NCBI GenBank assembly: GCA_963575745.1
Contig: CAUYUJ010003414.1
Span: 286,559-350,558 of the forward strand
Direction of reading: 5' to 3'
DNA: 64,000 nt
DNA from: Prorocentrum cordatum
Taxonomy: Eukaryota > Sar > Dinophyceae > Prorocentrales > Prorocentraceae
Shown here: one piece after another, positions 4,386-55,435 of the stretch
How the letters are laid out: the number at the start of each line of letters is the position of its first letter
Numbering within the stretch: the stretch's first letter is position 1
The notes under the pieces: model-generated
What the model saw: the letters and a program-made list of their open reading frames with translations, nothing else
What the model was told of the DNA's origin: nothing
Database searches by the model: none
Program-made: the position numbers and the translations under genes

Positions 4386-4631
4386 CTGACCTCCTCCTCC
4401 TCTTCCGCTCCTCCTCCTCCTCCTCCTCCTCTCCTCCGCCTCCTCTTTCTTCCTTTTCTTCTTATTAATATTATTCTACATCTCTTCTTTCTTCTTCCTC
4501 TTCCCTCCTCCTCCCTCCTCCCTCCTCCTCCTCCTCCTCCTCCTCCTCCTCCGTCCTCCTCCTCCTCCTCCTCCTCTTCCTCCTCCTCCTCCTCCTCCTC
4601 CTCCTCCTCCTCCTCCTCCTTCTCCTCCTCC
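4386..4631 (+). repeat. (CTC)n pyrimidine tract upstream of the spliced-leader doublet
   Basis: About 245 bp of CTC/TCC repeats ends directly at the spliced-leader copy. Inference: for a transcript of the downstream ORF this would be a polypyrimidine tract in front of the AG at 4636-4637 inside the leader copy, which is where a further round of trans-splicing could occur. Confidence 0.85.
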
Positions 4632-4667
4632 CCGTAGCCATTTTGGCTCAAGCCATTTTGGCTCAAG
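4632..4667 (+). other. Dinoflagellate spliced-leader copy plus 15-nt relict leader
   Basis: Positions 4632-4652 match the 21 invariant bases of the 22-nt dinoflagellate spliced leader, running CCGTAGCC to GGCTCAAG. They are followed immediately by CCATTTTGGCTCAAG at 4653-4667, the last 15 bases of the same leader. In known relict leaders the second copy starts just after the internal AG of the leader, because a later trans-splicing event uses that AG as acceptor; this is the pattern here. It is not a spliced-leader RNA gene, because no GT donor or snRNA-like body follows the leader. The base at 4631 is C, which does not fit the usual first leader base (A, G or T), so that base was lost or belongs to the flank. 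The doublet shows that RNA from this locus went through at least two trans-splicing events and was reinserted as DNA. Confidence 0.93.
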
Positions 4668-4787
4668 CAGGCTCGGACTGCGCATCAAGGGCCTGCTGGG
4701 CAAGGCAGGCGCCCTCACATTTTGTATACGCTCCAGGAGCTCCTGTATCGTACTGGTTGGGCAGGAGGTCAGTTCTTCACGGCGCGC

Positions 4788-5855
4788 ATGGGGCGCAATG
4801 AGAGGGATGATCAGCGGACTGGAAGCCAGTACGAGAAGTGCAGGGGATGCGGGTGTAAGTGGAACTGGGGCACCAGGTCTGAGTGCTACAAGTGCCAGAG
4901 GGGAATGCAGCCAGCCACCTCTCAAGAGCGAGCTTCGCAGGGCATCTGGGGCCCCAGCGCCTCTTCGCGGAGCCGCAGCCGCCCATCGGCCAAGCAGAAC
5001 CGCGAGGAGCTCCTCAAGCAGCTGCGGGCCACTATCCCCGACGGCGACGCAGAGGCAGCCCAGCACCTCGAGGCGCTCGCCCGAGTGCGCACTCCAGAGG
5101 TGCACCCAGACGTTGTCCTCAACCAGGCCCAGGCGCGGCTCCGCAGGGCCGAGACAGGGCTCAAGAGGACCATCGACAACATCTCAGAGGGCGAGCGGTT
5201 CCTGCAGGACCAGAAGGAGCTGCGGGATAACTGGATCCACGAGATCGCCGACGCGGAGGCGGTGGTCCAGGAGGCCTACGCCAGAGCGGCGCCCAAGGCC
5301 GTCGCGCCAGCCGAGGCGCCCACGCCAGCCCTGGACCTCTCGCAGCTGCTCGAGGGCGACCTGGACATCCTCAGCGTGCGGCCGGGCAAGGCCTTCGACC
5401 TCCAGGGGCTCGACATCCCGCCTGAGGAGCACCGCCAGTTCGAGGAGCAGATGGGCCAATTCGTCAAGCAGGTCCAGACGGAGGTCAAGAGGCACTTCGG
5501 CCCAACGGCGGAGGGGCTCGCCGCAATGCGAGCGGACCTCCAGGCCTTCAGCGACAGGCTCAGGAGCAAGAGGGCTCGGTCGGAGCCCCCCCCGCCAGAG
5601 GCCGCCGCAGCTCCCGCCGCAGCGACGCCACCAAGCAAGGCAGCAGGCAAAGGTGGCGCCGACTACAAGCAGCCAGGGGCGGCCGCGCCCAAGGCAGCCC
5701 CCACAGCGGGGCCAAGCACCCCTCCCCCTGCTGGCGCTGACGGTGCTCGTGGCGCTGCTGCAGCCAGCGGAGGCGGCGCGGCAGGCGCCACTGCTCCTGC
5801 GCCGTCCGAGCCGCGCGTCATCGGGCGCCCCCACAACAGGCCTCGACGACACTGA
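4788..5855 (+). CDS. ORF1-like protein with a RanBP2-type zinc finger (LINE-associated), 355 aa
   Basis: Starts at the first in-frame ATG after the spliced-leader copy. The frame is open upstream to the leader but contains no earlier ATG. Near the N-terminus is a zinc-finger-like motif KCRGCGCKWNWGTRSECYKC: Cys at about residues 18, 21, 23, 33 and 36, with Asn 26 six residues before the third zinc Cys, as in RanBP2-type fingers. Residues of about 75-180 are charged and helical (for example QARLRRAETGLKRTIDNI) and probably form a coiled coil. A second helical segment follows (PEEHRQFEEQMGQFVKQVQ). The last third is Pro/Ala/Gly-rich low complexity. Known LINE ORF1 proteins are RNA-binding chaperones that often combine a coiled coil with a zinc finger. 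The assignment here is inferred from that layout and from the reverse transcriptase/RNase H remnant downstream. It could instead be a retroposed cellular zinc-finger gene. It is the only intact, non-repetitive frame in the window with convincing coding character. Confidence 0.7.
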   Translation: MGRNERDDQRTGSQYEKCRGCGCKWNWGTRSECYKCQRGMQPATSQERASQGIWGPSASSRSRSRPSAKQNREELLKQLRATIPDGDAEAAQHLEALARVRTPEVHPDVVLNQAQARLRRAETGLKRTIDNISEGERFLQDQKELRDNWIHEIADAEAVVQEAYARAAPKAVAPAEAPTPALDLSQLLEGDLDILSVRPGKAFDLQGLDIPPEEHRQFEEQMGQFVKQVQTEVKRHFGPTAEGLAAMRADLQAFSDRLRSKRARSEPPPPEAAAAPAAATPPSKAAGKGGADYKQPGAAAPKAAPTAGPSTPPPAGADGARGAAAASGGGAAGATAPAPSEPRVIGRPHNRPRRH

Positions 5856-6085
5856 GCGGACCACACCTGTGCGAAGATCCGGAGAGCCAAGAAATCCTGG
5901 AGCGGGCTCGCGCAGGCGAAAAACTCTCCCCCCAAGGATTCTGGCCACACAGACGTCCATCGCCTAGTGGGACCAGCCACCGCAGTCTGGCTGACGGTGG
6001 CGCGAGCGAGCGCCCACTGCCGCGCGGTCTGGAATGCAGCAGGGGCAAGGCGGCACGAGCCGCGAGGACGACAAAATAACCACTT

Positions 6086-6172
6086 AGAAAAAAACAAAAA
6101 AAAAAAATAAGTAAAAAACAAAGAAAGAAGAGAAAAAAAAGAAACAAATTAAAAATTAGACGAAACACAAGG
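6086..6172 (+). other. A-rich tract downstream of ORF1
   Basis: About 87 bases dominated by A with scattered C, G and T, 230 bases after the ORF1 stop, in otherwise GC-rich DNA. With the leader doublet at 4632 it would bound a retroposed mRNA of about 1.5 kb. Alternatively it is a spacer between ORF1 and ORF2 of one LINE. No target-site duplication was found by eye. Confidence 0.6.
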
Positions 6173-6520
6173 GGGCCACGCAAAGACAGCCGTCCTCTAC
6201 GACAATCGGCAACGGGGTCGAGCAGGCCCCCGCCAGCCTCTACGAAGCCCAAATACTTACAAACAAACTTACAAGGGGGGCGCCTCCTGCGCCCGACCAG
6301 AAGGAGCTGTCCCGAAGGGCGGGCAGGCGCTGGCAGCCTGGGCCAAAGCGGGTCGCCTTCATCGTGGGGGCGTGCGTCCACGTCCCAGCCATAGAGGAGG
6401 GCCTCGACATCCTGGACGGGGACGGCGACAGCTCCTCCTCGAGTACCTGGGCACGGAGGGCGCTCAGGGGAGCGGACGCGCCCCGCCGCCAGCAGCTCGC
6501 GCCGTGGCTCCGACGGCTGG

Positions 6521-7510
6521 GCGGCAGCTCAGCCTCGAGCACAGCCACGGACGCCGCGGAAGAGGCCCCAGAGGCGCAGGGGGGGAGAGCCGCAGATGTG
6601 CGGGTGGCCGAAGCCTCTCCCCATGCGCCCCTCTCGCTGATGCCGCCGACAGGCGGGTGGTCGAAGCCATCAGCGATGAGCTCGTGGAACAGAGAGCCGC
6701 AGACGTGCGGGTGGTCGACGCCTCTCTGCACGAGCGCCCCCAGCTCGGCCCCCCTGACGAGGGGGTGGCCGATGCAGCCCAGCTGGGGAGAGGGCTACTG
6801 GAGGCCTCGGGCACGGGGCAGAGGGTGGCGCTCCAAGCCTGGCATGGGCGTCAGCTCAGCCACGACTGCGGCCACTGAGGCCTCGGAGGAGGACCCAATG
6901 ACGCATGGTAGGAGAGCCGCGGATGCGCGGGTGGTCGATGCCTCTCCGCATGCGTCCCTCTCGCTGATGCGCCGACAGGCGGGTGGTCGAAGCCTTCGGC
7001 GATGAGCTCGGGGAACGGAGAGCCGCATACGTGCGGGTGGTCGAAGCCTCTCAACCCGAGCGCCCCCAGCTCGGCTCCCCCGACGGGGGGGTGGCCGACG
7101 CAGCCCAGCTGGAGAGAGGAATACTGGGGCTCCCGACCGCGAGGCAAGGGGCGCAAGGCAAAGCCCGACATGGGCCTCAGCTCAGCCTCGAGCATGGTCA
7201 CAACCGCCTCGGAAGAGGCCCCAGTGGCGCATGAGTGGAGAGCCGCGGATGCGCGGGTGGCCGAAGCCTCACCCCATGCGCCCCTCTCGCTGGTGCCGCC
7301 GACAGGCGGGTGGTCGATGCCACCAGCGATGTGCTCGTGGAACCGAGAGCCGCAGACGTGCGGGTGGTCGACGCCTCTCGATGCGAGCGCCCCCAGCTCG
7401 GCCCCCCCGACGGGGGGGTGGCCGAAGCAGCCCAGCTGGGGAGAGGAACGCTGGAGGCCCAGATCTCGAGGCAAGGGGCGCCACGCCAAGCCTGGCATGG
7501 TGCTCAGAGG
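6521..7510 (+). repeat. 327-bp tandem repeat, three units
   Basis: Three head-to-tail units, each beginning near CAGCTCAGCC and containing GAGAGCCGC at 6585, 6912 and 7238 (spacings 327 and 326). Shared internal strings include CGACAGGCGGGTGGTCGA and CCCCCAGCTCGGC. The last unit runs into the start of the ORF2 remnant. The slight length differences break any common reading frame, so it is not a repeat protein. Confidence 0.85.
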
Positions 7511-9419
7511 CCTCAGCGGCAGCGCCTGGGGCATCCTCGTCGACCGCCTGGACGAGATGCCGTTGGGCAAAAACACCATCATGTTGGTGCAGGAGCACTG
7601 CCTCACCAGTGACTACGTCGGCGAGATTAGTGCCAGCGGTGCTGCGGCGGTCCTAGACCTAGAGAAGGCGCTCGAGCAGGCCGCAGTGCACTTGCTTTGG
7701 GCCGATGAGCCCAAGCGCCAGTTTCGGTTGCAACTTTTGAAGCCTTTAATCTCGATTTACACGGCCAGGCGCTTTGTTTCCTTCCGCGGCGTGGTGTCGG
7801 TGCATTCGACCATCGCATTCTCAGCAGTCATTGCGGGTAGCAGCGGGGGCACGAGATGCCTCAAGCTAGCCATCTTGTCAGTCGTAGACGGGCTGGCGCA
7901 GGAGCACCCCGCCAGGCCGATGAAGTTTTTTGTCGAGGATTTAAGCATTCAGGCCCGAGGTGCGGAGGCGGATGTCTCGGCCTTGAGACTGGAGGTCCAG
8001 ACCAGTAGCACGCAGCTCGGAGTCGACTCGGCGGGAGGAGGAGTTGTGTCGCTGCGCACCAGAGGCGATGCCAGGATGGGGAGCGCTAGGCGGCGTAGAA
8101 GTAAGTTGTCAAGCATCGGCAAGCAGGGCGCGCGCACATTTCAAGTTGCGCGCATGGGATTTCTCCCCTCTGTGCTGCATGGGGCGGTTTGCCTCGGAAT
8201 GGACCCGACGCGGCTCACTCGAGCAAGGGCGCTCATGGCCTCGGCGCTGGGCGGGAACGCAATCGGTAAGGACCGACTGCTCCGCCTGTGGACGCTGAGA
8301 TGCGACCCCCTGGTCGAGGCCTGCACGAAGCCGCTGCTCAAATGGGCGGAGGCTATCTTTGCTGGCAGCCATGAGGAGATCATGGTTGCTGGGTGGCGCA
8401 GAGCTGTCGCGGCGGCCGCTGCCGCCAAGCCTGGAAGCAACCCCTGGAGGCAGATAAAAGGACCCGCTTCAGCCGTCTGGGCCACACTCAGACTCCTCTC
8501 GTGGACGTGGCCTGCCTATCATGTTTTCTTCGATCACCTCGGGCAGCAGTGGGAGTTGCGCAGGGCAGCACCGCAGTGTCTCAAGAAGCTGAGAGGAGCA
8601 GCGAGAGCCGCTGTAGCCGAGGATGAGGGCCTCCAAGGGATTGCGCATCGTGCTGTATCCTCCACCTCGGACTCCCTCCTTTTCACCACTGGGCTTCACG
8701 AGCACCCCCTGGAGGACCCGCAGTCGGATTGTATTTCGGCCCTGGAGGAGGACCCCGATTTTGTTCATCCCCCGCTGGTCTCAGGGTGGGCCTACTCCGA
8801 CGGATCGGCCAGAGGCCCACCAGGGCTTAAGAGTTCCTGTTGGGGCTACGCTTCCCTGGGCCAGGACGGGGGGGCTGTTAAGGCCATGCGGGGGACCCTC
8901 CCAGGGCTGCGTAGCCTAGCCTCCGTCCTGCGTGCCGAGCTGTATGCACTGCTCAAGTTGCTGAATAGCGCCCACCCGCCTCTGAGGGTAGGGGTAGACT
9001 ACAGTTCAGTCATTCGAGGCATCCGTAAAGGCCCCAGCTGGTGCTGCAGCCCTAGGAGCTCGACGTGCGGGCGAAAGGCTTTCTCTTGCAAGACCAGGCG
9101 CGCGTTGGGGCGCAGGCCCTGCCAGGGCAAGATGAGCGTGGATCGTCGGTGGGGCGTTGAGTTGGGGCGGGGGGTTGGGGAAGGCGTCATCTCTCCAGCC
9201 CTCCGCGGTGCGGCCATGGGGCACAAAGCGCACCGCGCGGGCCAGTTTTCTTTCTGCGATCGGTGCGGTGTGTTCTCGAGCGAGAGAGGGTGCAAGCTCG
9301 TGGCTGCCTGCGGGTACCGTCTCTCGCTCCTGCGCCGAGGCAAAAATCCTTGTGCAGTGAAGGTCTCCTTGGAGGCAGAGCCGCGCTCCCTGGTACAGGT
9401 GGAGTGCGCGGCGTTCTAG
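7497..9419 (+). pseudogene. Degenerate LINE ORF2: endonuclease stub, reverse transcriptase, RNase H
   Basis: One open frame of about 640 codons from ATG 7497. Residues 7-40 resemble the start of an apurinic-type endonuclease (SGSAWG to IMLVQEHCLTSD, with the catalytic Glu in QEH). The rest of the endonuclease and the reverse transcriptase fingers are missing. At residue about 50 it jumps to a motif A-like AVLDLEKALEQ (Asp 54). Then come a motif B-like region (VIAGSSGG, about 111-118) and motif C as FFVEDLSIQ, with Glu-Asp in place of Asp-Asp. RNase H follows with YSDGSA (Asp 435), RAELYAL (Glu 481) and GVDYSS (Asp 501). After 501 the expected RNase H tail is not clear. A C-terminal zinc-ribbon-like CDRCG lies near the end. 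The deletion and the changed motif C indicate an inactive copy despite the open frame. Same superfamily as the minus-strand copy at 14385-16940. Confidence 0.8.
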
Positions 9420-9540
9420 GAGCGCCTGATGGATTGATCGGGAAGGGGCGGGAAGCACCCCGAGGTGGAGTGCCCGCCCATCCGTCTTCCATATGGCGAG
9501 CTGAGGCGGGGACCGCCAGGCATCGTTCTTGCAGCAAAAA

Positions 9541-9607
9541 CCTCCTCCTCCTCCTCCTCCTCCTCCTCCTCCTCCTCCTCCTCCTCCTCCTCCTCCTCCT
9601 CCTCCTC
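9541..9607 (+). repeat. (CTC)n microsatellite
   Basis: Pure CTC run of about 67 bp, starting about 120 bp after the ORF2 remnant. Confidence 0.95.
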
Positions 9608-10385
9608 CCCCCGGGCGCGCCCCCAGCCCCCGAGAGGAGCGAGCGGCCGCGAGCGGCCCAGCCCCGGAGGCGGGGCGAGCCGCCTTCGCCGCCGAGGCCT
9701 CGGCGGGCTGTCGCGGCCCGCAGGCCCCGCAGGCCGCCGCGGCGGCGGCTCAGCCTCCGAGGTCCCCGCCGCTCGCGTCGCCGCGCCGGCGCCCCCCGGC
9801 CCTGGGGCTGCCGGGCTCCCGCGGCGGGCCGCCCCTCTCGGGCGCCTCGCGGGCCTCCGCGGCGGGCCGCGGGCCGCCGAGGGCCAACGCCGCCGCCGTC
9901 GGCAGTGTCGCCGTCGCCGTCGCCGCCGCTGCTGGCGCCGCTGTCGCCGCCGAAGCTGGAGTCGGCGCAGTGGTCGTCGTCGGTCCGTCGCAGTCGCCGC
10001 GGCTGTGGCCGTGGCCGTGGCCGTGGCCGTGGTCGTCGCCGTGGCCGTCGTCGCCATCGTCTTGGCCTGGGGGCGGGGAGGAAGGGATTTTAGGGGGATG
10101 AGGTCATGCGCGCCAGCCTCAGAGCAAGGAAAGACCCCTGCGGGTTGCGCAATAGCAGCGCGCCTCAGTGCCTACAGCGTATGTGCTGCGCCCACGCGAT
10201 GACATCAACCATCACTCGGGCGCTGGTGCAGCGTGGGAGGATACCCCCGAATGCTGACCAAAGGTGCCGATCGTCGGGCCACGTGCTGACACGGGGCGCG
10301 CCCCTCTGATCCTTCCCCTGCCTGGTCTGACGGTCGATCGGCCGCGGCGTCGGCCGCGGCGCGGCCCAGCGCGCCTCGCACTCTT
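9608..10385. other. GC-extreme gene-free region with (GGCCGT)n
   Basis: Very GC-rich CCG/CGG sequence without a recognisable gene. 10005-10055 is a GGCCGT hexanucleotide run. Long frames on both strands encode only Arg/Pro/Ala-rich low complexity. Confidence 0.6.
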
Positions 10386-12359: not shown

Positions 12360-14110
12360 CAAGATCGCCCACAGACGGCCCAAGAGGCCTTCAAGAGGGC
12401 CAAAAACGGCAAGGAGGGCCCCAAGACGGCCCAAGGTGAAAGGGCCCCCAGACGGCCCCCAAAGGGCCCAAGAGAGGGAACACGAACCAAAAATCCAACC
12501 CTTCCGTCCAAAGAGGCCCCCAGAGGCGCCCAGGAGGCCCAAGAGGCGACCAAGAGGCCCCATTGAAGCCCCAAGAAGCACCCAAGAGGCCCAACATAGG
12601 CCCCCCAACGGCCCTCAAGAGGCCTCAGCGAACATCCAATAGGCCTCACACCCGCAACCCATGCACGGTGGCGGGATGGGCCGCAGGTTTTTTTTGTTGC
12701 CCAGGGTGCGAAGGGCTCCCAAATGGGCCGCAGGCCCTGTGCTTGCCACAAGGGAGCCCGGCGTGCTGGATCCTTTCGGTTTGGGTTTTGGTTCTTTTTC
12801 CCAAAGAACTCTCCCCTGAGGGTTCGGCCCGTCCCGCCGGCCACCCGGAAAGGACCGCGAAGACCCGATTGCAAAGGTTTGTCCTGCTCTAGACGGCTCC
12901 AAGATGGCCCAAGCTGGCCTCCAAGATGGCCAAGATGGCCTCCAAGACGGCCCAAGAGGGTCCAAGATACTTCCAAGTCCGCCCAAGAAGCCTCCAAGAC
13001 GGCCCAAAAGGTGTCCGCGAGGCCTCCAAGCTTGCCAAAATGGCCCCCGAGAGGTAGGAGACAGATTTTCGTACTTGCTCTTTTTCGGCCAATATCGCCC
13101 CCAGAGCGCCCAAGACGCCTCCAAGATGGCGTCAGGAGCGCCCAAGAGGCCCCCAAGACGCCCCAGGAAGCCTCCAAGACGGCCCTGGAGCACCCCAAGA
13201 GGGTCCCAACTCGGCCAAGAGAGGCCCCCAAGACGGCTTCCGACGGCGTCGGGCCAGGGGCCCACCAAGACGGCCCAAGATGGCTCTAAGATGGCCCAGG
13301 AGGCCTCCAAGAGGGCCTCCAGGAAGACGCGACGAGGCCAGAACTATGATTTTCGGTAGGTTGTGGAAGGATTTCGGCATTTGCTTGTTTTCGGCCTTCC
13401 GACGGCCCGTGACGGCCCAAGAGCCCCAAAAGATCGTCCCAAGATCGCCCAAGGGGCCTCCAAGATGGCACCAGAATGGCCCAAGAGGCCCCCAAGACGG
13501 CTCCAAGAGGGCCCCAAAACGGCCCCAAGAGGCACCAACAACGCTCATGAAGGCCTCCAAGACCGCCCTGGGGCATTCCAAGAAGGCGCCAAGTCGGCCC
13601 AAACAGGCACCCAAAACGGCTTCCGACGGGCCGGGGGCCCACCAAAACGGCCGAAGGGGGCCCTGCGATGGCCCAAGACGGCGCAAGAAGCCTCCTAGAA
13701 GGCCCCCAGGAAGGCCCGAAGAGGCCAAAACTATGATTTTCCATACGTTTCGGAAGGATTTTGGCATTTGTTCGGTTTCGGCCTCCCGACGGCCCACGAC
13801 GGCCCCAAAGATCGCCCAAGAGACCTTCCAAATTGCCCCAAAACTGCCAAAGGGCCCCCCAGGGCGGCCCCAAGACGGCCCAAGAGGCATCCACGACGCC
13901 CACGACGGCCTCCAAGACGGCCCTGGAGTACCCCCAAGAGGGCCCCAAGTCGGCCCCAAAAGGCCACCCCAGACTGCTTCCGACGGCGTCGGGCGGGCCA
14001 ATGGCCCACCAAGGCGGCCAAAGAGGCCCCCGAGAAGCCCCAGAAGCCACCCGAGAGGCCTCCAAGAGGACCCCCCAAATGCGGAAGGGTCTTTTTGGCT
14101 CCACGCCTGG
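12360..14110 (+). repeat. GGCC/CCAAG higher-order repeat, cluster 1
   Basis: Built of irregular 10-12 bp words of the type CCAAGACGGCC and CCAAGAGGCCT. Conserved modules are embedded. Module D is near 12465 (GGGAACACGAACC). Module A is at 12663-12852 (GCACGGTGGCGGGATGGGCC to CCGCCGGCCACCCGGAAA). B units have cores near 13377 and 13762 (GGATTTNGGCATTTG then TTCCGACGGCCC), with a weaker one near 13090. Module order D-A-B-B matches the large cluster at 46960-55070. The minus strand gives long Trp/Leu/Gly-rich frames (such as SWAVLGASWG) that only reflect the short word period. Confidence 0.85.
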
Positions 14111-14384
14111 CCCTCCGCACTTGACATATAGTCAAACAAGGCTTCGCTGACAGCGGAGGGAAATGTCAGTGAGCGCAAATGACTCAGTCAGAATCATCTG
14201 CAGGATGTCTCTGACAGATCGGCTGCGAGCCCTCCTGCTCGAGAAGATTGGTGGCGACAGAGGACTGCTGCGCCTCGGAACTGACTGTCGTGCCAGCCTG
14301 GGCGACGGGCGCGGGGTCATCGCCGACAAAAAAGTATTGAAACAGGGTATCAAGGTGCCGGCAGCGGCAGTCACTCCGAGCTTC

Positions 14385-16940
14385 TGTCTGCTGTAGTGAA
14401 GGTGGCGGCCCTGACTGAGCGCATTCCAACCCACGCGGTGGGCGCGAGAGGCTGGCGGGCGGCAAGTCGAACGCAAACCTCTGATCTGCTCTCCGTTGGA
14501 ATGGCACTTGCAGCGAGTGCAGATGAACAGTGCAGGCCCATCGCTGCAGACGAAGGCGACGGTGCGGTTATTCAAGGCATCTTGCGAGGCAGCATGCAAA
14601 AAAGGAATGCCCAGAACAAACGGAAGGCAGGATGCTCCGCGAGAGATCCTCTCAAGCAAACGGCGCGCCCCCAGATGCCGCACCAAGGCTGCCGCGTGTG
14701 CGGGGTCCGATTGGAGGCGGAGGAAAGGAACTCTTGCCTGCCGACCTCGGACACAGCAAGGGCTGGCCAAAGATGCATCACGTGAACCGCGAGCCGAATC
14801 GTGGCTCGACCATACTTCGCCAGCCCGTCGGCCCTAGCCGGGGCGTCGGGGCCAGACGGGTGCAAGAGCAATGCGTGCTTGGCCGCTGCATCAGCGTGCT
14901 GATTACCTTTACGAAGCCAGCGCTCCTGGGAAGAAATGCCAGGCTCGTCGACATTTCGATGCGCGGCTACCTTCACGCACTCCGCGGGGGGCGATCTGCC
15001 CTGAAGGTGCAACTGGGCGAGGGCCCCAGAGTGAGCCTTGTAGCCTGAGAGCTGCTCTGCCTTCGGTCTGCACGCCTGTCGGGCGACATTCAGACAATCA
15101 GAATGGGCGCTAAACCCTGCAGAAGCCAGAACAGCAGCCCACGTGAAACACCCGAACTCGGCGGACAGAGCCGTCTGGGGGTAGGGGGCCCCAACGGGGG
15201 CTTTGAGCTCGCGCGCTGAGTCTCCGAAGCTGTCGACTTGGACAACGCTGCGCGCAGCCCTGGAAAGCTCCCTAACAGGATGACGCGAGCAGCTGCCGTC
15301 CATGAACAGCGAGCCCCAAAGCTCGATGCCAGGAGCGTGACCATCTGGGCGGCGGGAGCCCTGGTGGTGGCGCGCAAAGAGGGGGCCATCAGCGAACTCC
15401 GTGCGGGGCCTGGGGTAGCCGTCGGCGGGGTGGCGGAAAGCCCCAGACGAGAACGCGAATGCCTCCGATGGGGTCCGTGCCGATCTTCGCAGACAACGCA
15501 GCATGCACCACTTCAGGATCGACCAACTCCGCTCGAAGAGACGCCGCAAACTCGCGAGAGGACTCCCACATGCGGTGGAAGACGGTGTCGGGGGCTCCGC
15601 AAAAAAGGGCGCTTCCCGTCAACCGAGTACCCCTTGCTCCTGTTTCTCTGGCCCGTGATGAAAGAAAGCCTCGGTGGCGAAGGCTCGAATGCGTGCCTTC
15701 TGCAACGCCGCGTATTTTTTGCCGCGCAAGGACTCGCGCGCAATGTCGTGGCAAAGCCTGGGCAGCATGCCCCGCTTCTCCCCGGACTCGCGCTCGAGCG
15801 TGCGCAAATGTCCACCTCTCACTGACACCTCAGTGGGGGCAGGAGACAGCAGGCCAAGGGGCAGCGCGTGGCCTCTGGCGTCTCGAGGAGCGCCACGAAC
15901 TTGCCCATGTGCCAACCGAGCCCAGATGGGCTCCCCCCGAGGGCGGGAACGGGGCCCGAGACCGGCCTCCAGGGACGAGAAGGTTTCGAAAGGACAGCTT
16001 CCCAGGACCCGCGGAGGGCAGTGGGGGGCAAGTCCAAGGGAAAGCGCCTGTCCGGCAGGGCCAGATCTCCTTAGTCCACCTCGCAGTAGGAGCCGTGGCC
16101 GTGCGCCAACGGGGATCAGAAGCGAGCAGCGCAGCCGTCGTCGGGCTTCGGCGCTGCGAAGTCGGCCTGGTCACAAAAAAGACCTCCCGGGGCGATGGGG
16201 CCCTGAATCGCTGGTGCCCGTGATTTCGGGGCCGTGCGTGGCCCCGGCCAAGGGGCCCGCCGAGAACGCGCGAACCACCTGGGCCCGCGGCAGCGTCTTG
16301 TTCTGACGCTTAAGTCTCTTGGAAGCTCGACCGGACTCAGACAAACGCGCTCTTAACTTGGAGAAAGCGTCGCCAACTCTGAGGGCGCGACCAGCAGTGT
16401 AGTCCGCGCCCAAATTGACAGAACTAAAATTGGAATCGCCCCCCACAGTGTGATAATTGATTCGCCGCCCCCTTCCCGATCGCCTTAGTGGAGGCCACGG
16501 CGGCCGTCTTGTCCAGAGCAAACGAGCAGCCAAAATACCACTCCACAGCCTTCTGGAGCGCTTTGGCCCCACGGACCAAAGTCTTTAGAACGCGAGAGGG
16601 AGCATCCGTGACCGAAAGACCCTGGTCGTCGATGTACACGTCCAGATCGAGGTGGGGAAGAGGTGTAATCGAATCGTAAGCGCCCTGACAAAAAAATCAA
16701 ATGAACGTCGTGGCCATGGAACAACCCGCAATCACCCCATTGGCGCAATGGTAAGGGCCGTCGAGCCAGCCCCGAAGACTCAGGAATCGACCGCACCTGT
16801 ACGCACGCATGCACACTCTCGCAATCGCGACAGGGAAGCCATGCTTCCTGCAGCGCTCATCTAGCGCGCGCAAAGAGATGCGCTCGTAGAATTTGCATAC
16901 GTCAACGAACAACACTGCAGGAAGCCTGGCCCGCCAAGAT
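14385..16940 (-). pseudogene. Degenerate LINE ORF2 with reverse transcriptase, RNase H and zinc ribbon
   Basis: Minus-strand retroelement readable only by changing frame several times. Reverse transcriptase: motif A LFVDVCKFYERISL (Asp codon 16901-16903), a motif B-like VIAGCSMAT, and motif C YIDDQ (16625-16636) intact. A conserved downstream segment LGADYTAGRALR lies near 16400. A zinc-knuckle-like CGAPDTVFHRMWE follows near 15600. RNase H is in one frame from 15549 to 14572: Asp 84 (FMDGS), Glu 131 (SAEFG), Asp 151 (HSDCL), His 197 (KVAAH) and Asp 220 (GNQHADAAAK), a full catalytic set. A C-terminal zinc ribbon CTRCKCHSNGEQIR is read in another frame near 14500. The first-to-third Asp and Glu spacings (47 and 20) match those of the plus-strand copy (46 and 20). 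The endonuclease and reverse transcriptase fingers are missing: the copy stops at about 16940 against CCAAGAG-type repeat, as expected of a 5'-truncated LINE insertion. Frameshifts make it non-functional. Confidence 0.85.
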
Positions 16941-44639: not shown

Positions 44640-44895
44640 ATGGCCCCAAGATTCCTCCCAGACCCCTCCCAGAGAGCCCCACGAGGCCCCAAGAGGCCTC
44701 CAAGAGGCCCCCAAGATGCCCCCAAGAGGCCCCCAAGAGGCCCCAAGAGGCTCCCCCGAGGCACCCACGACGCTCCTGGAAGCCCCTGGAGCCGCCAAGA
44801 GGCCCCCAAGACGCCCCAAACGGCATCCAAGAGGCTCCCCAGAGGCCCGAAGAGGCTCTCCCAAGGCACCCAAGACGCTCCTAGAAGCCCCTGGG
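44640..44895 (+). repeat. Short GGCC/CCAAG repeat cluster
   Basis: About 255 bp of CCAAGAGGCC and CCCCAAGACGC words without modules A, B or C. It runs directly into the minisatellite at 44900. Confidence 0.8.
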
Positions 44896-44899
44896 ACTC

Positions 44900-45493
44900 G
44901 CACCAGGACGAGGTGCCCGAACGCCTCACACCACGAGGAGCCCGAACGACTCACACCAGGACGAGGGGCCCGAACGACTCACACCACGAAGAGCCCGAAC
45001 GACTCACACCAGGAGGAGGGGCCCGAACGACTCACACCAGGACGAGGCGCCCGAACGACTCACACCACGAGGAGCCCGAACGACTCACACCAGGACGAGG
45101 GCCCCGAACGACTCACACCACGACCAGCCCGAACGACTCACACCAGGAGGAGGGGCCAGAACGACTCACACCAGGACGAGGGGCCCGAACAACTCACACC
45201 ACGAGAAGCCCGAACGACTCACACCAGGACGAAGAGCCCGAACGACTCAAACCACGAAGAGCCCGAACGACTCACACCAGGAAGAAGGGCCCGAACGACT
45301 CACACCAGGACGAGAGGCCCGAACGACTCAAACCACGAGGAGCCCGAACGGCTCACACCAGGACGAGGGGCCCGAACGACTCACACCACGAGGAGCCCGA
45401 ACGACTCACACCAGGAAGAGGGGCCCGAAGGACTCACACAAGGACGATGGGGCCGAACGACTCACCCCACGAGGGGCCCCAACGACTCCCACC
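44900..45493 (+). repeat. 25/28-bp minisatellite, about 22 copies
   Basis: GAACGACTC recurs about 22 times. Units are of two kinds, largely interleaved: a 28-bp form containing ACCAGGACGAGGGGCCC and a 25-bp form containing ACCACGAGGAGCCC. Both lengths leave remainder 1 on division by 3, so all three frames stay open and give THT/PND/ERLTP pseudo-peptides. Confidence 0.95.
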
Positions 45494-45494
45494 A

Positions 45495-45540
<46 letters not shown>

Positions 45541-45660
45541 TCGTCGTCGTCGTCGTCGACGTCGTCGTCGTCGTCGTCGTCGCGGTTGTGTCGTCGTCGT
45601 CGTCGCGGTCGATATCGTCGTCGTCGTCGGGTGCGTCGTCGTTGTTAGGATCATCGCTGT
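45494..45660 (+). repeat. (TCG)n microsatellite
   Basis: TCG/GTC run with short interruptions, starting immediately after the minisatellite. Confidence 0.95.
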
Positions 45661-46079
45661 GGTCGTCGTCTCCGCTAAATCCCTCTTGCCTCCCACCGCT
45701 TTCTCTCCCTCCTCCTCCGCCTCGTCCTTCTCCCGCTCCCACCACAAGGAGGATGTACAAGGAGGCGGGAGGAAGGAGGAACAGGGGAGATATGCGGGGG
45801 CAGGCGGAAACACGCCTGAAAAACAAGACTGTCGGCATGCTTCGCAAGAGTTGCTGTTTTGAGATGGGCTGGTGGGGATACGCGAAGCGTGAAGAAATTT
45901 TTGACCTCCTCCTCCTCCTCCTCCCCCTTCCCCTCCCCCTACCCGTCCTCCTACTGCTCTTCCTCCTCCTCCGCTTCCTCCTCCTCCTCCTACTCCTCCT
46001 CTTCCCAGTTGCCGCGGTCGTCCGCGAGAACGACTGCGCCAACCAGAAGGGCGACGGCGAAGACGACGTCGACAACGAA
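45661..46079. other. Gene-free spacer with TCC tract
   Basis: No recognised gene. A TCC/CTC tract is at 45904-46005. Confidence 0.5.
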
Positions 46080-46606
46080 AGAGGACGAGGATGCGGACGA
46101 GGACGAGGACGAGGAGGACAACGGACGACGACGACAACGACGACAACGACGACGACGACGCACTGCGGATGCCTGCGGATGCCCTATGGCCCTATGGCCC
46201 GCTGTAGCCGACGACGGCAACGAAGATGACGAGGACGAGGACGAGGACGGAACGAGGACGACGACGACGGACGACGGCGACGACGCCAACGACGCACTGC
46301 GGATACCCTGTGAGGGGGGGCGTGCTGCGTAGGCCCGCTGTAGTCGACGAAGACGACGAGGACGAGGCTGAGGACGAGGATGAAGTCGACGACGACGACG
46401 ACGTCGACGAAGACGACGGCAACGACGACGGACGACGACGAAGACGAGGACCACGACGACGACAGGATGAGGACGACGACGAAGACGAGGAGCAGGACGA
46501 GGACGACGGACGACGACGGTGACGACGACGATGCACTGCGGATGCACTATGGCGGGGGTGGGGGTGTACTACGTGGGCCCGCTGTAATCGACGACGACGA
46601 CGACGG
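46080..46606 (+). repeat. (GAC)n array punctuated by a conserved 50-70 bp segment
   Basis: GAC/GAG triplets broken three times by a segment running from ACTGCGGAT to GCCCGCTGTANTCGACGA, starting at about 46161, 46297 and 46532. Confidence 0.85.
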
Positions 46607-46609
46607 CAG

Positions 46610-46735
46610 AACAATTGCCGGGGGGGCAGACGATTAAAACATCAATTCACTCAGCTGGATTTTACTAGTTTGCCCAACTCATTCATTTTGAAGCCCCCGG
46701 AGGGGGGGGCATATTCAAACCGTTTGCTCCCATTC
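46610..46735 (+). repeat. Dispersed repeat DR-3, second-part copy
   Basis: GCAGACGATTAAAACATCAA, then TTTTACTAGT (TTCTATTAGT at 26448) and TTCATTTTGAAGCCCCCGGA. Related to 26395-26500, with the same order of landmarks. Confidence 0.55.
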
Positions 46736-46959
46736 ATGGAATCCTACTGACGCTCGATCCAGCATTAATCCGCCACCGTGCCTGCAGCATGTAGTGGAGA
46801 GCCCCAAGGTTCCATGAGAAATTCAGATTTGTAAGGTTTAATAATTTTTGTTCAAGGGCCCGGGCCACCAGGTTCACGCACATTTCAAAGGATTTCCGCG
46901 GATTCCATGGGATTTCCGGGGATTCCCCTGGCATGTCGCGCGCGTCCTCTGGTAGCGCA

Positions 46960-48556
46960 GCCGGCCAAACATGGGCCCAAAAAGCGCCCAAGAGGGCGGA
47001 AGATGCCTCCGAGAAGGCCCAAGAGTGCCCCAATACACCCAAGATGGCCCCAACATAGCCCAAAAGGCCCCCAAGACTTCCCAAGAGTGTTCCAAGAGGC
47101 GTCCCAAGAGGGCCCTGATTTGATGGAGGTTTTCGAGCATTTTTGGCCTTCTCGCCTTTGCAGCTTTCCGACTCTCCGAAACGGCCCACGCGGCCCCCCA
47201 AACCCCCAAAACGGCACCAGAAGTCCCCAAGAGGGCCCCTAAGACGGCCCAGAAGGCACTCTTGGGCCCAAAGACAGACCCAAGAGGGGGCCCATCTGGG
47301 AACGGAGCAGACATTTCGAGCCCTCGGCCCCGAGGGCCCCCCAGGAGACAGCAAACGGCCCCTAAGAGATCCCCAAGAGGCCCCGAGAGGCTCCCAAGAG
47401 GCCCCGAAGAGGCTCCCAAGAGACCCCAAGACTGCTCACAAGAGGCCCCCGAGAGCGCCCAAAGAGCATTCCTAAGGACTCTGACCAACAACCCGAGCAC
47501 AGTGGCGGGATGGGCCGAAGGCCACTATATCCGCCGCCCCCTGTCGATTCATCACAAGGGTGCCTGGCGTGCTAAACCCTCTCGGTTTTGGCTTTGGCTC
47601 TTTTTCCAAATGAACTCCCCCTGGGGCTCTGGCGCGTCCCGCCGGCCACCCGAAGACCCGGTTACCATCGCCAAAAACGGCCGTTTCGCTCGGGACATCC
47701 TCAAAACATGGCGATGGCCCCAGATGCACCCAAGACGGCCCAAGATGGCCCCAACACGGTCTAAGACGGCCCAAAAGGCCCGCAAGAGGCCTCCAAGACG
47801 GCCCAAGAGGCCTCCAAGAGTTTCTCCAGGAAGGCCCGACGAGGCCGACATCATTGATTTTCCATAGGTTTTTCAGGGATTCTGGCAATTGCGCCTTTTC
47901 GGCTTTCCGACGGCCAGTGACGGCCCCAGAGGCCGCCAAGGTCGCCCTTGGATCGCCCAAGAGGCCTCAAGAATGGCCCCATGACGGCGCAAGAGGCCCC
48001 CAACACGACCCCAAGAGGGCGCCAAGACGGCCCAAGAGGCCTCGAAGACGCCCAAGATGATGGCCTCTAAGACGGCCCTGGAGCACCCCAAGAGGGTCCA
48101 AAGACGGGTCAGAAAGGCCCCCGAAACGGCTTCCGACGGCGTCAGACGGGCCAGGAGCCCACCAAGATGGCCGAAGGTGGCTCGCAGCTGGCCCAAGACG
48201 GCCCAAGAGGCCTCCAAGAGGGCCTCCAGGAAGGCCAGAAAAGTCGAAAAGAGTGATTATCCGAAGGTTTTTGAAGGATTTTGACATTTGCTTTGTTTCG
48301 GCCTCCCGACGGCCCGATACGGCCCAAGAGCTCCCAAAGATCGCCCAAGGATCGCCCAAGAGGCCTCCAAGATGGCCCCAGAACGGCCCAAGAAGAGGCG
48401 CCCAAGACGGCCCCAAGAGGCCCCCGAGACGGCCCAAGAGGCCTCCAAGACGCTCAAGATGGCCTCCAAGACGGCCCACGAGCCCTCCAAGACGTCCCCC
48501 AAGAAGGCCCGAAAGACCCCAAATGGTCTCCAAGCGGCCAAGATGACCTTCAGGAT
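46960..48556 (+). repeat. GGCC/CCAAG higher-order repeat, cluster 3, leading part
   Basis: Short CCAAGACGGCC words throughout. Landmarks: a B-like core near 47130-47180, module D near 47290, module A at 47499-47655, and B cores near 47883 and 48286. Order B-D-A-B-B. No gene: long minus-strand Trp/Leu/Gly frames are repeat translation. Confidence 0.85.
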
Positions 48557-50035
48557 GCCCATGTGTTCCCCGAAGGCTTTCCAAACCGATTCGGGGAACA
48601 TATGGTCCGATAGCTTGGCAGGTCTGGCCTCAACGTTCGGCCACATAGGCGCTTCCAAAAAGGCAAGGGGCGGCGGTGATTCGCCGTAGGCGTCTTCGAT
48701 CCGCCGCCCTCTTTTGATTTATGAATGGGTGCCTGGCGTGCCGAATTATTACGATTTGGGTGTTGGTTCTTTGTCCCCAACAAACTCCCCCTGGGGCTTC
48801 GTCATGTCCCGCCGGGCACCTGGAAAACCCACCTGTCGTCACCTGTCTTGCCCCAAGATGGCCTCCAAGATGGCCACGTTGGCCCAAGATGGCCTCCAAG
48901 ATGGTCCAAGACGGCCTCCAAGTCTGCCCAAGATGGTCCAAGACGGCCTCCAAGACGGCCCAAGAGAGTCCAAGACGGCCCAAGAGGCCCCCCAGAGGCG
49001 CCTCCAAGAGGTCCTCCAGGAGGGCCCGAACCAAACTCATTGATTTTCCTAAGGTTTTTGAAGGATTTTCGCATTCGCTTCTTCTCGGCTTTCCGACGAC
49101 CCAAGACGGCCCAAGAGGCCCCCAAGATCGCCCCCACAGCGCCCAAGAGGCTTCAGGGCTGCCCAAAAGGCCCCCAAGACGGCCCCAAGAGGGCACAAAG
49201 ACGACCCAAGAGGCCTCCAAGACGCCCAAGATGGCCTCTAAGACGGCCCTGGAGCACCCCAAGAGGGACCCAAGTCGGCCCAGTAAGGCCCCCCAAATGT
49301 CTTCCGACGGCGTCAGACGGGCCAGGAGCCCACCAAGATGGCCGAAGTTGGCTCGAAGCCGGCCCAAGAGGCCTCCAAGAGGGCCTCCAGGAAGGCCAGA
49401 AAAGGTCGAAAAGAGTGATTTTCCGGAGGTTCTTGAAGGATTTTGACATTTGCTTCTTTTCGGCCTTCCAACGGCCCGATACGGCCCAAGAGCCCCCAAA
49501 AGATCGCCCAAGGATCGCCCAAGAGGCCTCCAAGATGGCCCCAGAACGGCCCAAGAGGCCCCCAAGACGGCCCCAAAAGGCCTCCAAGACGGCCCAGGAG
49601 GCTTTTAAGACGCCCAAGATGGCCTCCAAGACGGCCCTGGAACATTACAAGAGGGTCCCAAGTACACGGCTTCCGACGGCGTCGGACGGGCCAGGGGCCC
49701 ACCAAGACGGTCGAAGATGGCACTAAGGTGGCCCAAGACGGCCCAAGAGGCCTCCAAGAGGACCTCCAGGAAGGCCCGAAAAGGCCAAAATCATTAATTT
49801 CCCATGAGTCTTTGAAGGATTGTGGCATTTGCTTTTTGTCGGCCTTCCGACGGAACGGCCCAAGTGCCCCCAAAGATCGCCCAAGAGGCCCAAGACGGCC
49901 CCAAGAGGCCCCCAAGACGGCCCAAGAGGCTTCCAAGACGCTCAAGTTGACCTCCAAGACGGCTCAAGAGCCCTCCAAGACGTCTTCCAAGAAGGCGTCC
50001 AAAACGCTCAAGGTGGCCTCCAGGCGGCCAGATGC
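48557..50035 (+). repeat. Higher-order repeat monomer 1, 1479 bp (C-A-B-B-B)
   Basis: Module C starts at 48557 (GTGTTCCCCGAAGGCTTTCC). It runs without a gap into module A (48668-48828, CGCCGTAGGCGTCTTCGATC to GGGCACCTGGAAA). Then come CCAAGATGGCC spacers and three B units with cores at about 49067, 49446 and 49823 (spacings about 379 and 377). The next module C follows at 50036. Confidence 0.9.
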
Positions 50036-51517
50036 CCACGTGTTCCCCGAAGGCTTTCCAAACCGATTCGGGGAAAACATGGGCCAACAGCTTGGCGGGT
50101 CTGGCCTCAACGTTCGGCCACATAGGCACTTCCAAAAAGGCAGGGGGCGGCGGTGATTCGCCGTAGGCGTCTTCGATCCGCCGCCCCCTGTCGATTCATC
50201 GCAGGGGTGCCTGGCGTGCTAGACCCTCTCGGTTTTGGATTTGGTTCTTTCCCAAAAGAGCTCCCCCTGGGGCTCCGGCCCGTCCCGCCGGCCACGTGGA
50301 AACTGCACAAGTCAATGCCTGTTCCGCCCCAAGATGGCCCAATATGGTCCCAAGACGGCCAAGATGGCCTCCAAGATGCATCGAACACAACCAAGATGGC
50401 TTCCAAGAAGGCTAAGAAGGCCCCAAGATGCATCCCAAACGGCCCAAGATGACCTCAATATGGTCTAAGACGGCCCAAAAGGCCCGCAAGAGGCCTCTAA
50501 AACGGCCCAAGAGGCCTCCAAGAGGTCCTCCAGGAAGGCCCGACGAGGCCAAAATCATTCCTTTTCCCTAGGTTTTCGAAGGATGTTGGCATTTGCGCCT
50601 TTTCGGCTTTCCGACGGCCCAAGACGGCCCAAGATGCCCCCAAGATCGCCCAAGAGGCCTCCAAGATGGCCCCGTGACGGCCCCAGAGGCCCCTGAGACG
50701 GCCCCAAGAGGGCCCCAAGACGGGCCAAGAGGCATCCAAAACGCCCAAGGGGCCTCTAGGACGGCCCCGAAGCGCCCCCAGAGGGCCCCAAGTCGGCCCA
50801 GTCAGGCCCCCAAGACGGCTTCCGACGGCGTCAGACGTGCCAGGAACCCACCAAGATGGCCGAAGTTGGCTCGAAGCTGGCCCAAGACGGCCCAAGAGGC
50901 TTCCAAGAGGCCTCCAGGAAGGCCAGAGAAGGCCAAAAACACGTATTGATTCTGAGAATTGTGTGTATATATATATATATATATATAAACAAGATTTGAC
51001 ATTTGCTTCCTTTCGACCTTCCGACGGCCCGAGACGGCCCAAGAGCCCCCAAAGATCGCCCAAATATCGCCCAAGAGGCCTCCAAGATCGCCCCAAAACG
51101 GCCCATGAGGCCCTCAAGACGGCCCAAGAGGCCTCGAAGACGCCCAAGATGGCCTCCAAAACAGCCCTGGAGCATTCCAAGAAGGCCCCAAATCGGCCCA
51201 GAGAGACCCCCCCAAACGGCTTCCGGCGGCGGCAGACGGGCCAGGACCCACCAAGACGGCCGAATATGGCCCTAAGATGGCCCAAGAGGCTTCCAAGACG
51301 GCCTCCAGGAAGGCCCGAAAAGGCCCAAACCGTTGATTTCCCATGACTTTTTGAAGGATTGTGGCATTTGTTTTTTCAGCCTTACGACGGCCCGAGACGG
51401 CCCAAATGCCCCCAAAGATCGCCCAAGACGGCCCCAAGAGGCCCCCAAGACGGCCCAAGAGTCTTCCAAAACGCTCAAGATGGCCTCCAAGACGGCCAAG
51501 ATGACCTTCAAGATGCC
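50036..51517 (+). repeat. Higher-order repeat monomer 2, 1482 bp (C-A-B-B-B)
   Basis: Same order and nearly the same length as monomer 1. Module A ends at 50302. B cores are at about 50590, 50999 and 51363. The larger first B spacing (409) is partly due to a (TA)n insertion at 50963-50988. Confidence 0.9.
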
Positions 51518-52590
51518 TATGTGTTCCCCGAAGGCTTTCCAAACCGACTCGGGGAACACATGATCCGATAGCTTGGCAGGTCTGTCCTCAACGTTCTGCC
51601 ACATAGGCGCTTCCTAAAAGGCAGGGGGCGGCGGTGACTCACCGTAGGCGTCTTCGATCCGCCGCCCCCTGTTGATTCATCACAGGGGTGCCTGGCGTGC
51701 TAGATGATCTTGGTTTTGGATTTGGTTCTTTCCCAAAAGAGCTCCCCCTGGGGCTCCGGCGCGCCCCGCCGGCCACCTGAAAAGACTGCCCAGGATGCCC
51801 GGAGCCGGTTGCCAAGAGTTCTTCCGTTCCAGAAGGCTCCAAGATGGCCTCCAAGACGGCCAAGACGGCCTCCTAGACGACTAAAGTGGCCCCAGGATGC
51901 CTCCAAAACGGCCCAAAATACACCCAGAACGGCCCAAGATAGCCTCAAGATGGTTCAAGACGGCCCAAGAGGATCCCAAGAGGCCTCCAAGAAGGCCCAA
52001 GAGGCCTCCAAGAGGTCCTTTGGGATGGCCCGTGGAAGCCAAAATCAATGATTCTCTTTTGGTTTTTGAAGGATTTTGGTATCTGCTCCTTCTCGGCCTT
52101 CCGACGGCCTCAGACGGCCGCAGAGGCTCCCAAGATCGCCCGAAGATCGCTCAAGAGGCTTCCAAGGGGCCCCATGACGACCCAAGAAGCCCCCAAAACG
52201 CCCCCGAGAGGGCTCCAAGACGGCAAAAAACGCCTCCAAGACGCCCAGGATGGTCTCCCTGACGGCCCTGAAGCGATTCAAGAGGGCCCCAAGACGGCCC
52301 AAAAAGGCCCCCAAGACGGCTTCCGACGGCATCGGACGGGTCAGGAACGCCCTAACACGGCTCTCAGCAGGCCCACGGAGGCCTCAAAGAGGCTCCCAGG
52401 GAGTTCCCAGCAAGCCCCAATAAGCTCCCATGAAGCCTCCTCCTCCGCCTCCTACTGTTCTTCTTCCTCTTCCTCTTGCTCATCATGTTCATTTTCCGTC
52501 ACGTGTTCTCGAAAAGCCGTCCGGACCGACTCGGGGAACTCATGGTCCAACAGCCTGGCCACGCTCTAGCCCCACTCTCGGACAAAACCG
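51518..52590 (+). repeat. Higher-order repeat monomer 3, truncated (C-A-B, diverged C)
   Basis: C at 51518, A to 51783, one B core near 52078, then a diverged C at about 52498 (GTGTTCTCGAAAAGCCGTCC and ACTCGGGGAACTCATGGTCC) after a short CTC tract. Confidence 0.85.
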
Positions 52591-53474
52591 CCAATATGGG
52601 CCAATAGAGCCCGAGAGTGTCTCAAGAGGTTCCCGAAAAGCCTCGTCATCCCCTCTCCTTTTCCCTGCCTCTCCTGCTCTGTCCTGCCCCCCCCCTGCGT
52701 GCCCCCCCGAAAATTTTCCAAACCGATGCGGGGGGCAATTGGGGCAGCAGGGTCAAAATGGGCCTAAAGTGCTCTCCGAAACGTCCTCCACGAAGGCCCG
52801 AAAAGGGCAGTTCATTGATTATCCCGGATTTTCCCGTCCCATCCTGGCCCAGCCGTCGACCGCAGAAGCACTTCCAATGGGGCAGGGGGGCTAAGATGGC
52901 CTGCGACACGGCAAAGAGGGCCCCGAGAGGCCTCCAAGACGGCCCAGGATGCACCCAGCGCGCAGTCTGATAGCTTGGCCAATCTGGGGTCCAACGTTTT
53001 GCTGCAGAGACGTCTCCCCAGAGGCTCCCATGAGGTCACCTCGCGTTCCTCCTCCTCTTCGGTGTTCCCCGAAGATTGTCGAAAAGAGTTCGGAGAACGT
53101 ATGGTCCGATTTCCCAGCCAAACTCAAACCCAACTCCCGACCGCATCGGCGTTTATAGGAAGCAGGAAAATCTATTTTCAGCTGTCTGCCGAGCATTGCG
53201 CTCGGCGTCAAGTCCACATGAAATCGCGGCGCGCTGACGGGGCACCTCGCGATGGCTTGCGAGCCTGGGCATGGCCCGGGCGAGCCCGGGCATGGCCCTG
53301 GCGCATCTCCTCTTGTTGTGGGAATTGGCGTACTCTGGACGGCCCCAATCCCGTCATTGGACACGGGCTTCATGGGCCTGCTCCTCGTCTCGCGCGTGCA
53401 CGCATACTCATGTGTTCCTATGTTCTCTCTTTGTTGTCTCTTTTTCTTGACACTTCTCGCGTAATTCCCAAAAA
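52591..53474. other. Degraded repeat remnants and unassigned sequence
   Basis: Scraps of module C recur (near 52700, 52965 and 53068, the last with GTATGGTCCGATTTCCCAGC). 53160-53470 has no recognised feature except GGGCATGGCCCGGGCGAGCC duplication at about 53268-53300. Confidence 0.5.
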
Positions 53475-55149: not shown

Positions 55150-55435
55150 CAATATTATTCCTACCACACACACTGTACCATACCATAGTTCCTACCACAC
55201 ATACCATACCATACCATACCATACCATACCATACCATACCATACCACACCATACGTACCATACCGTACCATACCATACCATGGCATACCATAGCATACCA
55301 TACCATATCACACCAATGCCACACCGTACCATACCATACCATACCTCCAGTACCATACCATACCATATCATACCATACCGTACCATACCATACCTACCAT
55401 ACCATTCCATACCACTCCATACCGAAAACCATACT
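55150..55435 (+). repeat. (CCATA)n pentanucleotide tract
   Basis: Imperfect ACCAT/CCATA units with occasional CCGTA and CTACC variants. The minus strand gives Tyr/Gly/Met/Trp-rich frames of no coding meaning. Confidence 0.95.

Follow-up and report, generated by a model that had tools for sequence, protein, structure and literature searches.

Positions 4632-9540 of the window, the 64,000-nucleotide stretch of Prorocentrum cordatum DNA analysed here (C3414:286559-350558 in a 4.128-Gb assembly of 21,875 contigs), very probably represent a non-autonomous, internally deleted LINE copy whose 5' end is the trans-spliced leader of the host (the dinoflagellate spliced leader, DinoSL). The leader doublet at the start of this element is itself known, and it is common in the genome of P. 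cordatum. To judge from the sequence, the novelty lies in what carries it: a LINE-type family whose 5' end comes from the host leader and whose copies reside in triplet microsatellites. DinoSL relicts and the recycling of mRNAs in dinoflagellates were reportedly described by Slamovits and Keeling in 2008.

Tandem relict leaders formed through recycling are described in PMC3229502 and PMC7245778, a survey gives 6,544 retrogenes in 37 of 43 species, 95% of them with a leader plus one relict (PMC12014239), and the exact doublet sequence is printed in PMC7557087. In the available text of three of these reports (PMC3229502, PMC7245778, PMC12014239), CCATTTTGGCTCAAG follows a full leader and the same use of an AG is proposed as for the window, in line with the remark of the initial annotation that genomic relict leaders are known in dinoflagellates. 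That literature deals with transcripts and genes, whereas the tagged sequence here belongs to a LINE-type family for which copies, ends and a target can be described. Neither a LINE with a leader as its 5' end nor a CCT-targeting dinoflagellate LINE was found in the literature covered, which includes the accessible part of a 2024 review (PMC11453091) and few subscription papers.

The leader doublet and the element behind it

The 21 invariant bases of DinoSL, CCGTAGCCATTTTGGCTCAAG, occur without mismatch at 4632-4652 (+), and the last 15 bases of the leader, CCATTTTGGCTCAAG, directly adjoin them at 4653-4667 (15/15 identical, with no decay); a third unit is absent from the doublet. The relict begins after the AG inside the leader (4636-4637), so that a full leader is followed by a relict of the known DinoSL type, just as the initial annotation had stated. 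Leader position 1, where the published D allows T, A or G, is occupied by the C that closes the upstream (CCT)n array. In the window (61.4% G+C), the expected count of the 21-mer from base composition is 1.9e-8, and 400 first-order Markov simulations yielded no leader match at up to three mismatches. The 15-mer is weak singly (six matches at up to three mismatches in the window, and at least six in 3 of 100 shuffles), yet two exact adjoining copies are not weak, so a chance origin is excluded. The element and its flanks comprise the following features:

4390..4631, no strand: (CCT)n array upstream, putative 5' side of the insertion target; TRF score 220; abuts the leader
4632..4652, +: complete DinoSL; exact match; internal AG at 4636-4637
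4653..4667, +: relict DinoSL, last 15 bases; exact match
4668..4787, +: 5' UTR from the alternative join CAGGCTCGG; most other copies carry TAAACC...GCCCAG ahead of this point
4788..5855, +: ORF1, 355 aa; zinc-finger-like C-x2-C...C-x2-C, charged middle and Pro/Ala tail (by eye)
5802..6186, +: stretch differing from the other long copies in their comparison, with the A-rich tract 6086-6155 (56/70 A)
6518..7500, +: three tandem repeats of 327 bp within the element, shared with five other long copies
7501..9419, +: ORF2 remnant; piecewise match to the relative L080; no Pfam match
9519..9540, +: 3' end of the element, GGCATCGTTCTTGCAGC plus A5; same end type in 6/6 long copies
9541..9608, no strand: (CCT)22, putative 3' side of the insertion target, from repeat and 3'-end comparison

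The initial annotation had placed the ORF beside a LINE ORF2 remnant. The two are parts of one unit, 4632-9540, which is colinear with five copies elsewhere (L073-L077, read over 9 kb each). Colinearity extends from the leader region to the 3' end, or from below the leader region in the 5'-truncated L077, with main blocks 93-99% identical to the window; in L073, a diverged duplicate (84%) makes up the final 0.5 kb. All six long copies share a constant A-tailed end, GCAGC followed by 4-9 A; the terminal end of L073 carries an extra AGC, and its internal duplicate has no A-tail. Within 4600-9620, the only repeats of at least 30 bases found by a tool whose scope excludes simple CCT runs are the internal 327-bp ones. 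Neither terminal repeats of at least 30 bases nor inverted repeats were detected there, as expected of a LINE, which has no LTRs.

ORF1 was initially described as an intact zinc-finger ORF. Its frame does run for 355 aa from the ATG at 4788, and GC3 is 0.81, reaching 0.94 in windows of 150 bases. In the closest copies, however, the match stops at residue 343, an effect of the stretch 5802-6186, in which the window departs from the other long copies, and the zinc finger is a reading by eye that neither Pfam nor NCBIfam reports. The A-rich tract within this stretch has more A than any other 70-mer on the two strands of the window (runner-up, 43 A), and could mark the end of an SL-tagged retrocopy of a host zinc-finger gene, with the LINE piece as a chance neighbour. 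This explanation is very improbable: five copies continue colinear beyond the tract to the 3' end, the four that were printed (L073, L074, L075, L077) do so without it, and ORF1 belongs to a multicopy family of LINE type rather than to a host gene, as a DinoSL retrogene would. A reading of the tract as the poly(A) tail of an ORF1 mRNA was rejected, since other copies lack it and remain colinear beyond it.

Domain searches give little for the window itself: Pfam (ten ORFs) and NCBIfam report no LINE domain, ORF1 and the ORF2 remnant as protein queries return nothing at E <=0.001 among 7,997 and 7,995 candidates scored, no solved structure matches, and viral contigs hold no relatives. More comes from L080, a relative with 86% identity in ORF1 that starts at a contig end and has a 1,500-residue open frame across the 4.5 kb read. 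L080 matches the window element piecewise (main blocks 92-95%) and retains about 1.8 kb that is absent at window position 7640, together with about 150 bases absent near 7983. By eye, this extra part contains endonuclease and reverse transcriptase (RT) motifs; the sole Pfam report in the frame is RVT_1, at an E-value of 8e-4 that is weaker than the Pfam cutoff. The ORF2 remnant, also by eye, consists of an endonuclease-like start, the deletion near 7640, the C-terminal part of the RT, an RNase H-like region and a C-terminal Cys region. The junction at 7640 is common to the five long copies (the frame was read in L077, and alignment blocks continue across it).

Spliced introns were considered as a source of the deletions and rejected. 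Nine comparisons gave six different deletions, and none of the four that are well placed has GT/GC...AG ends; for three of these four, 2-4 repeated bases allow the break to be placed at 3-5 points, and the two poorly placed ones match at 31/40 and 14/40. The ORF1 family has a median dN/dS of 0.50 (412 of 435 pairs with enough differences), which indicates some constraint. Between the window and its closest copies (L014-L021), ORF1 gives 0.8-1.5, and the ORF2 remnant gives 0.8-2.3 against four copies (2-7 synonymous differences each), values that point to a window copy that is young and probably not maintained.

Other features lie elsewhere in the window. A second DinoSL relict, mutated (19/21), is found at 57389-57369 (-), 12 bases past a GGA array on its own strand, and is not necessarily of the same family. 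Its two changes, A to C and T to G, compensate each other across the inverted repeat AGCCA-TTT-TGGCT and leave the hairpin intact (by eye). Positions 14200-16900 (-) contain a second LINE-like fragment (by eye), in which Pfam reports nothing relevant for two ORFs. Fields of short CCAAGAGGCC-like repeats in both orientations occupy 12500-14060 and 44640-55060, and 55420-56242 holds a tandem repeat of roughly 77 bp in about ten copies, 95-99% alike.

Leader units and their joins across the family

The genome contains at least 118 stretches matching ORF1, from 96% down to 32% identity with the window itself set aside; the figure is a lower bound drawn from the best candidates scored, and some loci contribute two rows. 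Leaders were read by eye over script output, oriented by strand, in the best 30 of these at least 118 rows (L013-L042, window included). A leader or part of one forms the start of 29 of the 30. Singlets account for 15 copies (that of L040 is incomplete), doublets for 11, the window among them, and a triplet for one (L041, whose first part carries a single change). L034 and L042 are cut inside the leader, and L021 is 5'-truncated and has none, so that this family includes the 5'-truncated copies typical of LINEs. The script counter assigns one unit each to L022 and L042, in which it departs from the count by eye. A doublet in front of such an ORF, which the initial annotation had regarded as the unusual part, is accordingly frequent within the family, and the genome search that it had proposed yields 1,202 exact doublets (622 + 580).

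After the last leader unit, 26 of the best 30 copies continue with TAAA, two have the join CTCGAG|GTG (L026 and L027), the window has GCCCAG|CAGG, and one has no join. The window leaders are joined to CAGGCTCGG, just past an AG that is found in the 5' region of other copies. Both rarer joins, in three copies altogether, come after AGs that are present in the 5' region of other copies. No pair of upstream flanks among the best 30 exceeds a similarity of 0.75, and these copies are therefore separate insertions. Three of them, L022, L031 and L032, end their leader region in the same unit with a one-base deletion, CCTTTTGGCTCAAG, and in L031 and L032 an intact leader stands above it. In these two copies, the deletion-bearing unit would be an old unit inherited beneath a newer leader.

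These joins bear on how the doublet arose. A tandem-SL gene could supply it in a single splicing step, its SL RNA donating leader and relict together, so that one cycle rather than several would be recorded. Such genes, with the one-step reading, have been described for Fugacium kawagutii (PMC6616646, in the part available), and the undecayed relict of the window is compatible with this. The older units of L031 and L032, which share their own deletion across separate insertions beneath intact new leaders, are what stepwise growth predicts, and leave the one-step origin unlikely for the window, though a variant SL RNA gene could still account for part of the doublets. The reuse of an earlier genomic leader as acceptor followed by reinsertion, as first proposed in the initial annotation, is the best reading of the doublet and of the window join after an AG.

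Under this stepwise reading, the RNA of the element would be made, perhaps through read-through, and the spliced leader would be added by trans-splicing at an AG close to the start of that RNA. The footprints of this splicing in the DNA would be the several joins described above, which involve TAAA, two AGs downstream of it and the AG inside the leader. The machinery of a partner LINE would then reverse-transcribe the capped RNA at a nick in a (CCT)n array, in keeping with the arrays seen at both ends, and the flanking (CCT)n may double as the polypyrimidine tract for the next splicing. The outcome of the following round would depend on the acceptor. Splicing at the end of the leader (CTCAAG|) would replace the leader without a trace and keep the count at one, splicing at the internal AG (CCGTAG|) would keep a 15-base relict and form a doublet, and splicing at a later AG would remove the old leader with some UTR. 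The window copy may reflect two successive events, the first at a later AG and the second at the internal AG, with an insertion after each. Relict units would in this way provide a DNA record of the splice-site choice of a mobile element over successive cycles.

Triplet arrays as the probable insertion target

Sequences flanking the family resemble each other in composition on both sides. Among the 29 leader-bearing copies of the best 30, 25 have at least 20 pyrimidines in the 24 nt above the leader, and CCT repeats follow the 3' end in five of the six long copies, with one intervening G in L074; the exception, L075, lacks a clean CCT array there and has CATTATCCTCC. Copies truncated in or below the leader (L021, L034, L042) likewise begin at CCT arrays. 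With CCT both at the starts of these truncated copies and after the 3' end, insertion into the array is a better reading than an array produced by the leader. The family thereby shows the flanks of a microsatellite-specific element.

Alternatively, the arrays might have no role as a target, having grown by slippage from the UCC of the leader or having been enriched through the loss of insertions without a polypyrimidine tract, which could not be spliced again. Some arrays do run in phase into the leader (by eye), and CCT outnumbers AGG by 19 to 5 among the 26 array sites sampled across the genome. Slippage from UCC, however, cannot make the AGG and ATC arrays that also occur, and CCT stands at the starts of truncated copies and beyond the 3' end as well. 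We consider this alternative improbable as an explanation of the arrays, and selection may still add to the CCT bias of what we take to be insertion sites.

SLACS, CZAR, CRE and NeSL are LINEs specific for spliced-leader exons. They share with the P. cordatum family the physical linkage of a LINE to the spliced leader, with the difference that the SL gene is their target, whereas here the leader would be part of the element. Were the window copy an element of the SLACS/NeSL kind, the leader would be target sequence outside the cDNA, and non-LTR elements that target spliced leader exons do exist (PMC4640811, in the part available). The chances of this are minute: the leader unit number varies between copies, which argues against an SL exon as target, and pyrimidine-rich or CCT-type flanks, rather than SL RNA genes, surround the copies on both sides (25 of 29 on the 5' side, and five clean of six on the 3' side of the long copies). 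Togen, which inserts at (TG)n, offers a parallel in its use of a microsatellite as insertion target (PMC4640811); here the repeat is the trinucleotide (CCT)n and a spliced leader stands at the 5' end. The trypanosomatid L1Tc/ingi elements are also LINEs of organisms that trans-splice their mRNAs, but their common 5' Pr77 activates transcription and their unspliced transcripts are abundant, according to the accessible text of PMC8190864, whereas the 5' end here is the leader.

Leaders across the genome and their carriers

The exact 21-mer occurs 14,218 times in the genome (7,201 + 7,017), and reversed-sequence controls for leader and doublet give no match genome-wide. A perfect (CCT)4 lies 0-9 bases from 1,823 of the 7,017 reverse-strand leaders (26.0%), compared with 263 of 7,017 (3.7%) at a control spacing of 200-209 bases, a control itself raised by long arrays. 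These pattern counts refer to the reverse strand, where every listed site appears once, as forward counts are inflated by overlapping matches that list a site up to four times.

For a closer view, 37 sites were sampled in contig order: exact leaders supplied the first 8 and doublets the first 30 (L008 and L043 being the same site), and 29 of the total owe their selection to the doublet. At 26 of the 37 sites, the sequence immediately above the leader is triplet-periodic, compared with 153/1,090 upstream and 10/1,110 downstream shifted controls. A stricter count of perfect arrays (at least 4 units, within 12 nt) gives 5/8 and 15/30 versus 19/704 and 71/2,760. The repeat unit at the 26 sites is CCT in 19, AGG in 5 and ATC in 2 (CCT versus AGG, binomial P 0.007). 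A scatter of the 21-mer at random positions with no link to ORFs, the outcome that the initial annotation had named as contrary to its proposal, is not what this sample presents.

Comparison by tblastx of 1.48 kb downstream places 23 of the 37 sites in two related groups, of 17 and 6 members, through links that reach down to E 1e-4 and are in some cases short. The three best-scoring pairs match in array type (L059/L065 AGG, L044/L048 CCT, L066/L071 ATC), and each of the two groups mixes array types. A second, simpler typing finds an array at 27 sites and none at 10 of the 37; group members make up 21 of the 27 typed sites versus 2 of the 10 untyped ones (Fisher P 0.002). This hints that sites without relatives in the sample seldom stand at triplet arrays, which argues against the same machinery for all tagged sequences, and the ten untyped sites may include true retrogenes. 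One target preference common to tagged genes and LINEs was considered, and the small sample gave it no support. The window element is not related to any of the 37 sites at a tblastx threshold of 1e-4, and the properties of the sample therefore need not apply to it.

Evidence for LINE identity differs among the sampled sites. Pfam reports no LINE domain in five ORFs below the leaders of L009, L006, L045, L066 and L072. L006 and L045 were chosen for their LINE-like ORF1 and read further, at least 1.4 kb below the leader. Below L045, a member of the smaller group, L079 gives Exo_endo_phos at 1.3e-4 and RVT_1 at 9e-6, both slightly short of the Pfam cutoffs. Below L006, which is in neither group, L078 gives RNase_H at 0.05 as its only report; motifs of an endonuclease and an RT can be made out by eye. 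For the larger group, the LINE-like character is a reading by eye, as in L009 and L047, which have endonuclease-like starts.

That 23 of the 37 sampled sites are related suggests that many genomic leaders may sit on LINE-type elements. If so, retrogene counts need a repeat filter, among them the 9,339 and 8,564 retrogenes counted from leader relicts near genes in two Symbiodinium genomes (quoted in PMC6050394), and LINEs become a testable source of reverse transcriptase. The available text of that paper calls the mediator of retroposition unknown and favours LTR elements of the Ty1/copia type, which ESTs of Oxyrrhis show (PMC3942190); virus-derived elements with leader relicts and LINEs nearby have also been reported (PMC10235124). 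A broader reading is that in P. cordatum LINEs as a class gave up their own 5' end for the host leader, that families target particular triplet arrays (CCT, AGG, ATC), and that, with CCT serving also as polypyrimidine tract, target and leader together form a portable trans-splice acceptor. We hold the case for this to be evenly poised, the LINE nature of the larger group having been read by eye. In that case, read-through RNA over any copy would be capped with a leader at the AGs of the copy; most of the 14,218 genomic leaders would point to the starts of LINEs and not to retrogenes, and the relict units would give a partial count of past rounds of retrotransposition.

Leader matches were also noted outside this genome. 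One further leader-like match, L004 (18 bases), looks like chance and was set aside. Two sequences filed under Dehalococcoidia carry a leader. L003 (4334-4354, -) is a eukaryotic rDNA repeat in which the leader, followed by GT, lies in the spacer, probably an rDNA-linked SL RNA gene and a MAG contaminant. L002 (1-60) starts with (TCA)n and an exact leader and is probably dinoflagellate DNA joined to bacterial DNA. A protein search with the 254-aa ORF of a viral contig, L001 (1936-2913, -; IMGVR_UViG_3300045993_001077), found only the same protein. This contig is AT-rich and giant-virus-like (by eye) and contains two exact DinoSLs, one of them directly 5' of that ORF, which looks richer in GC, as if an SL-tagged cDNA of the host had entered the viral genome.
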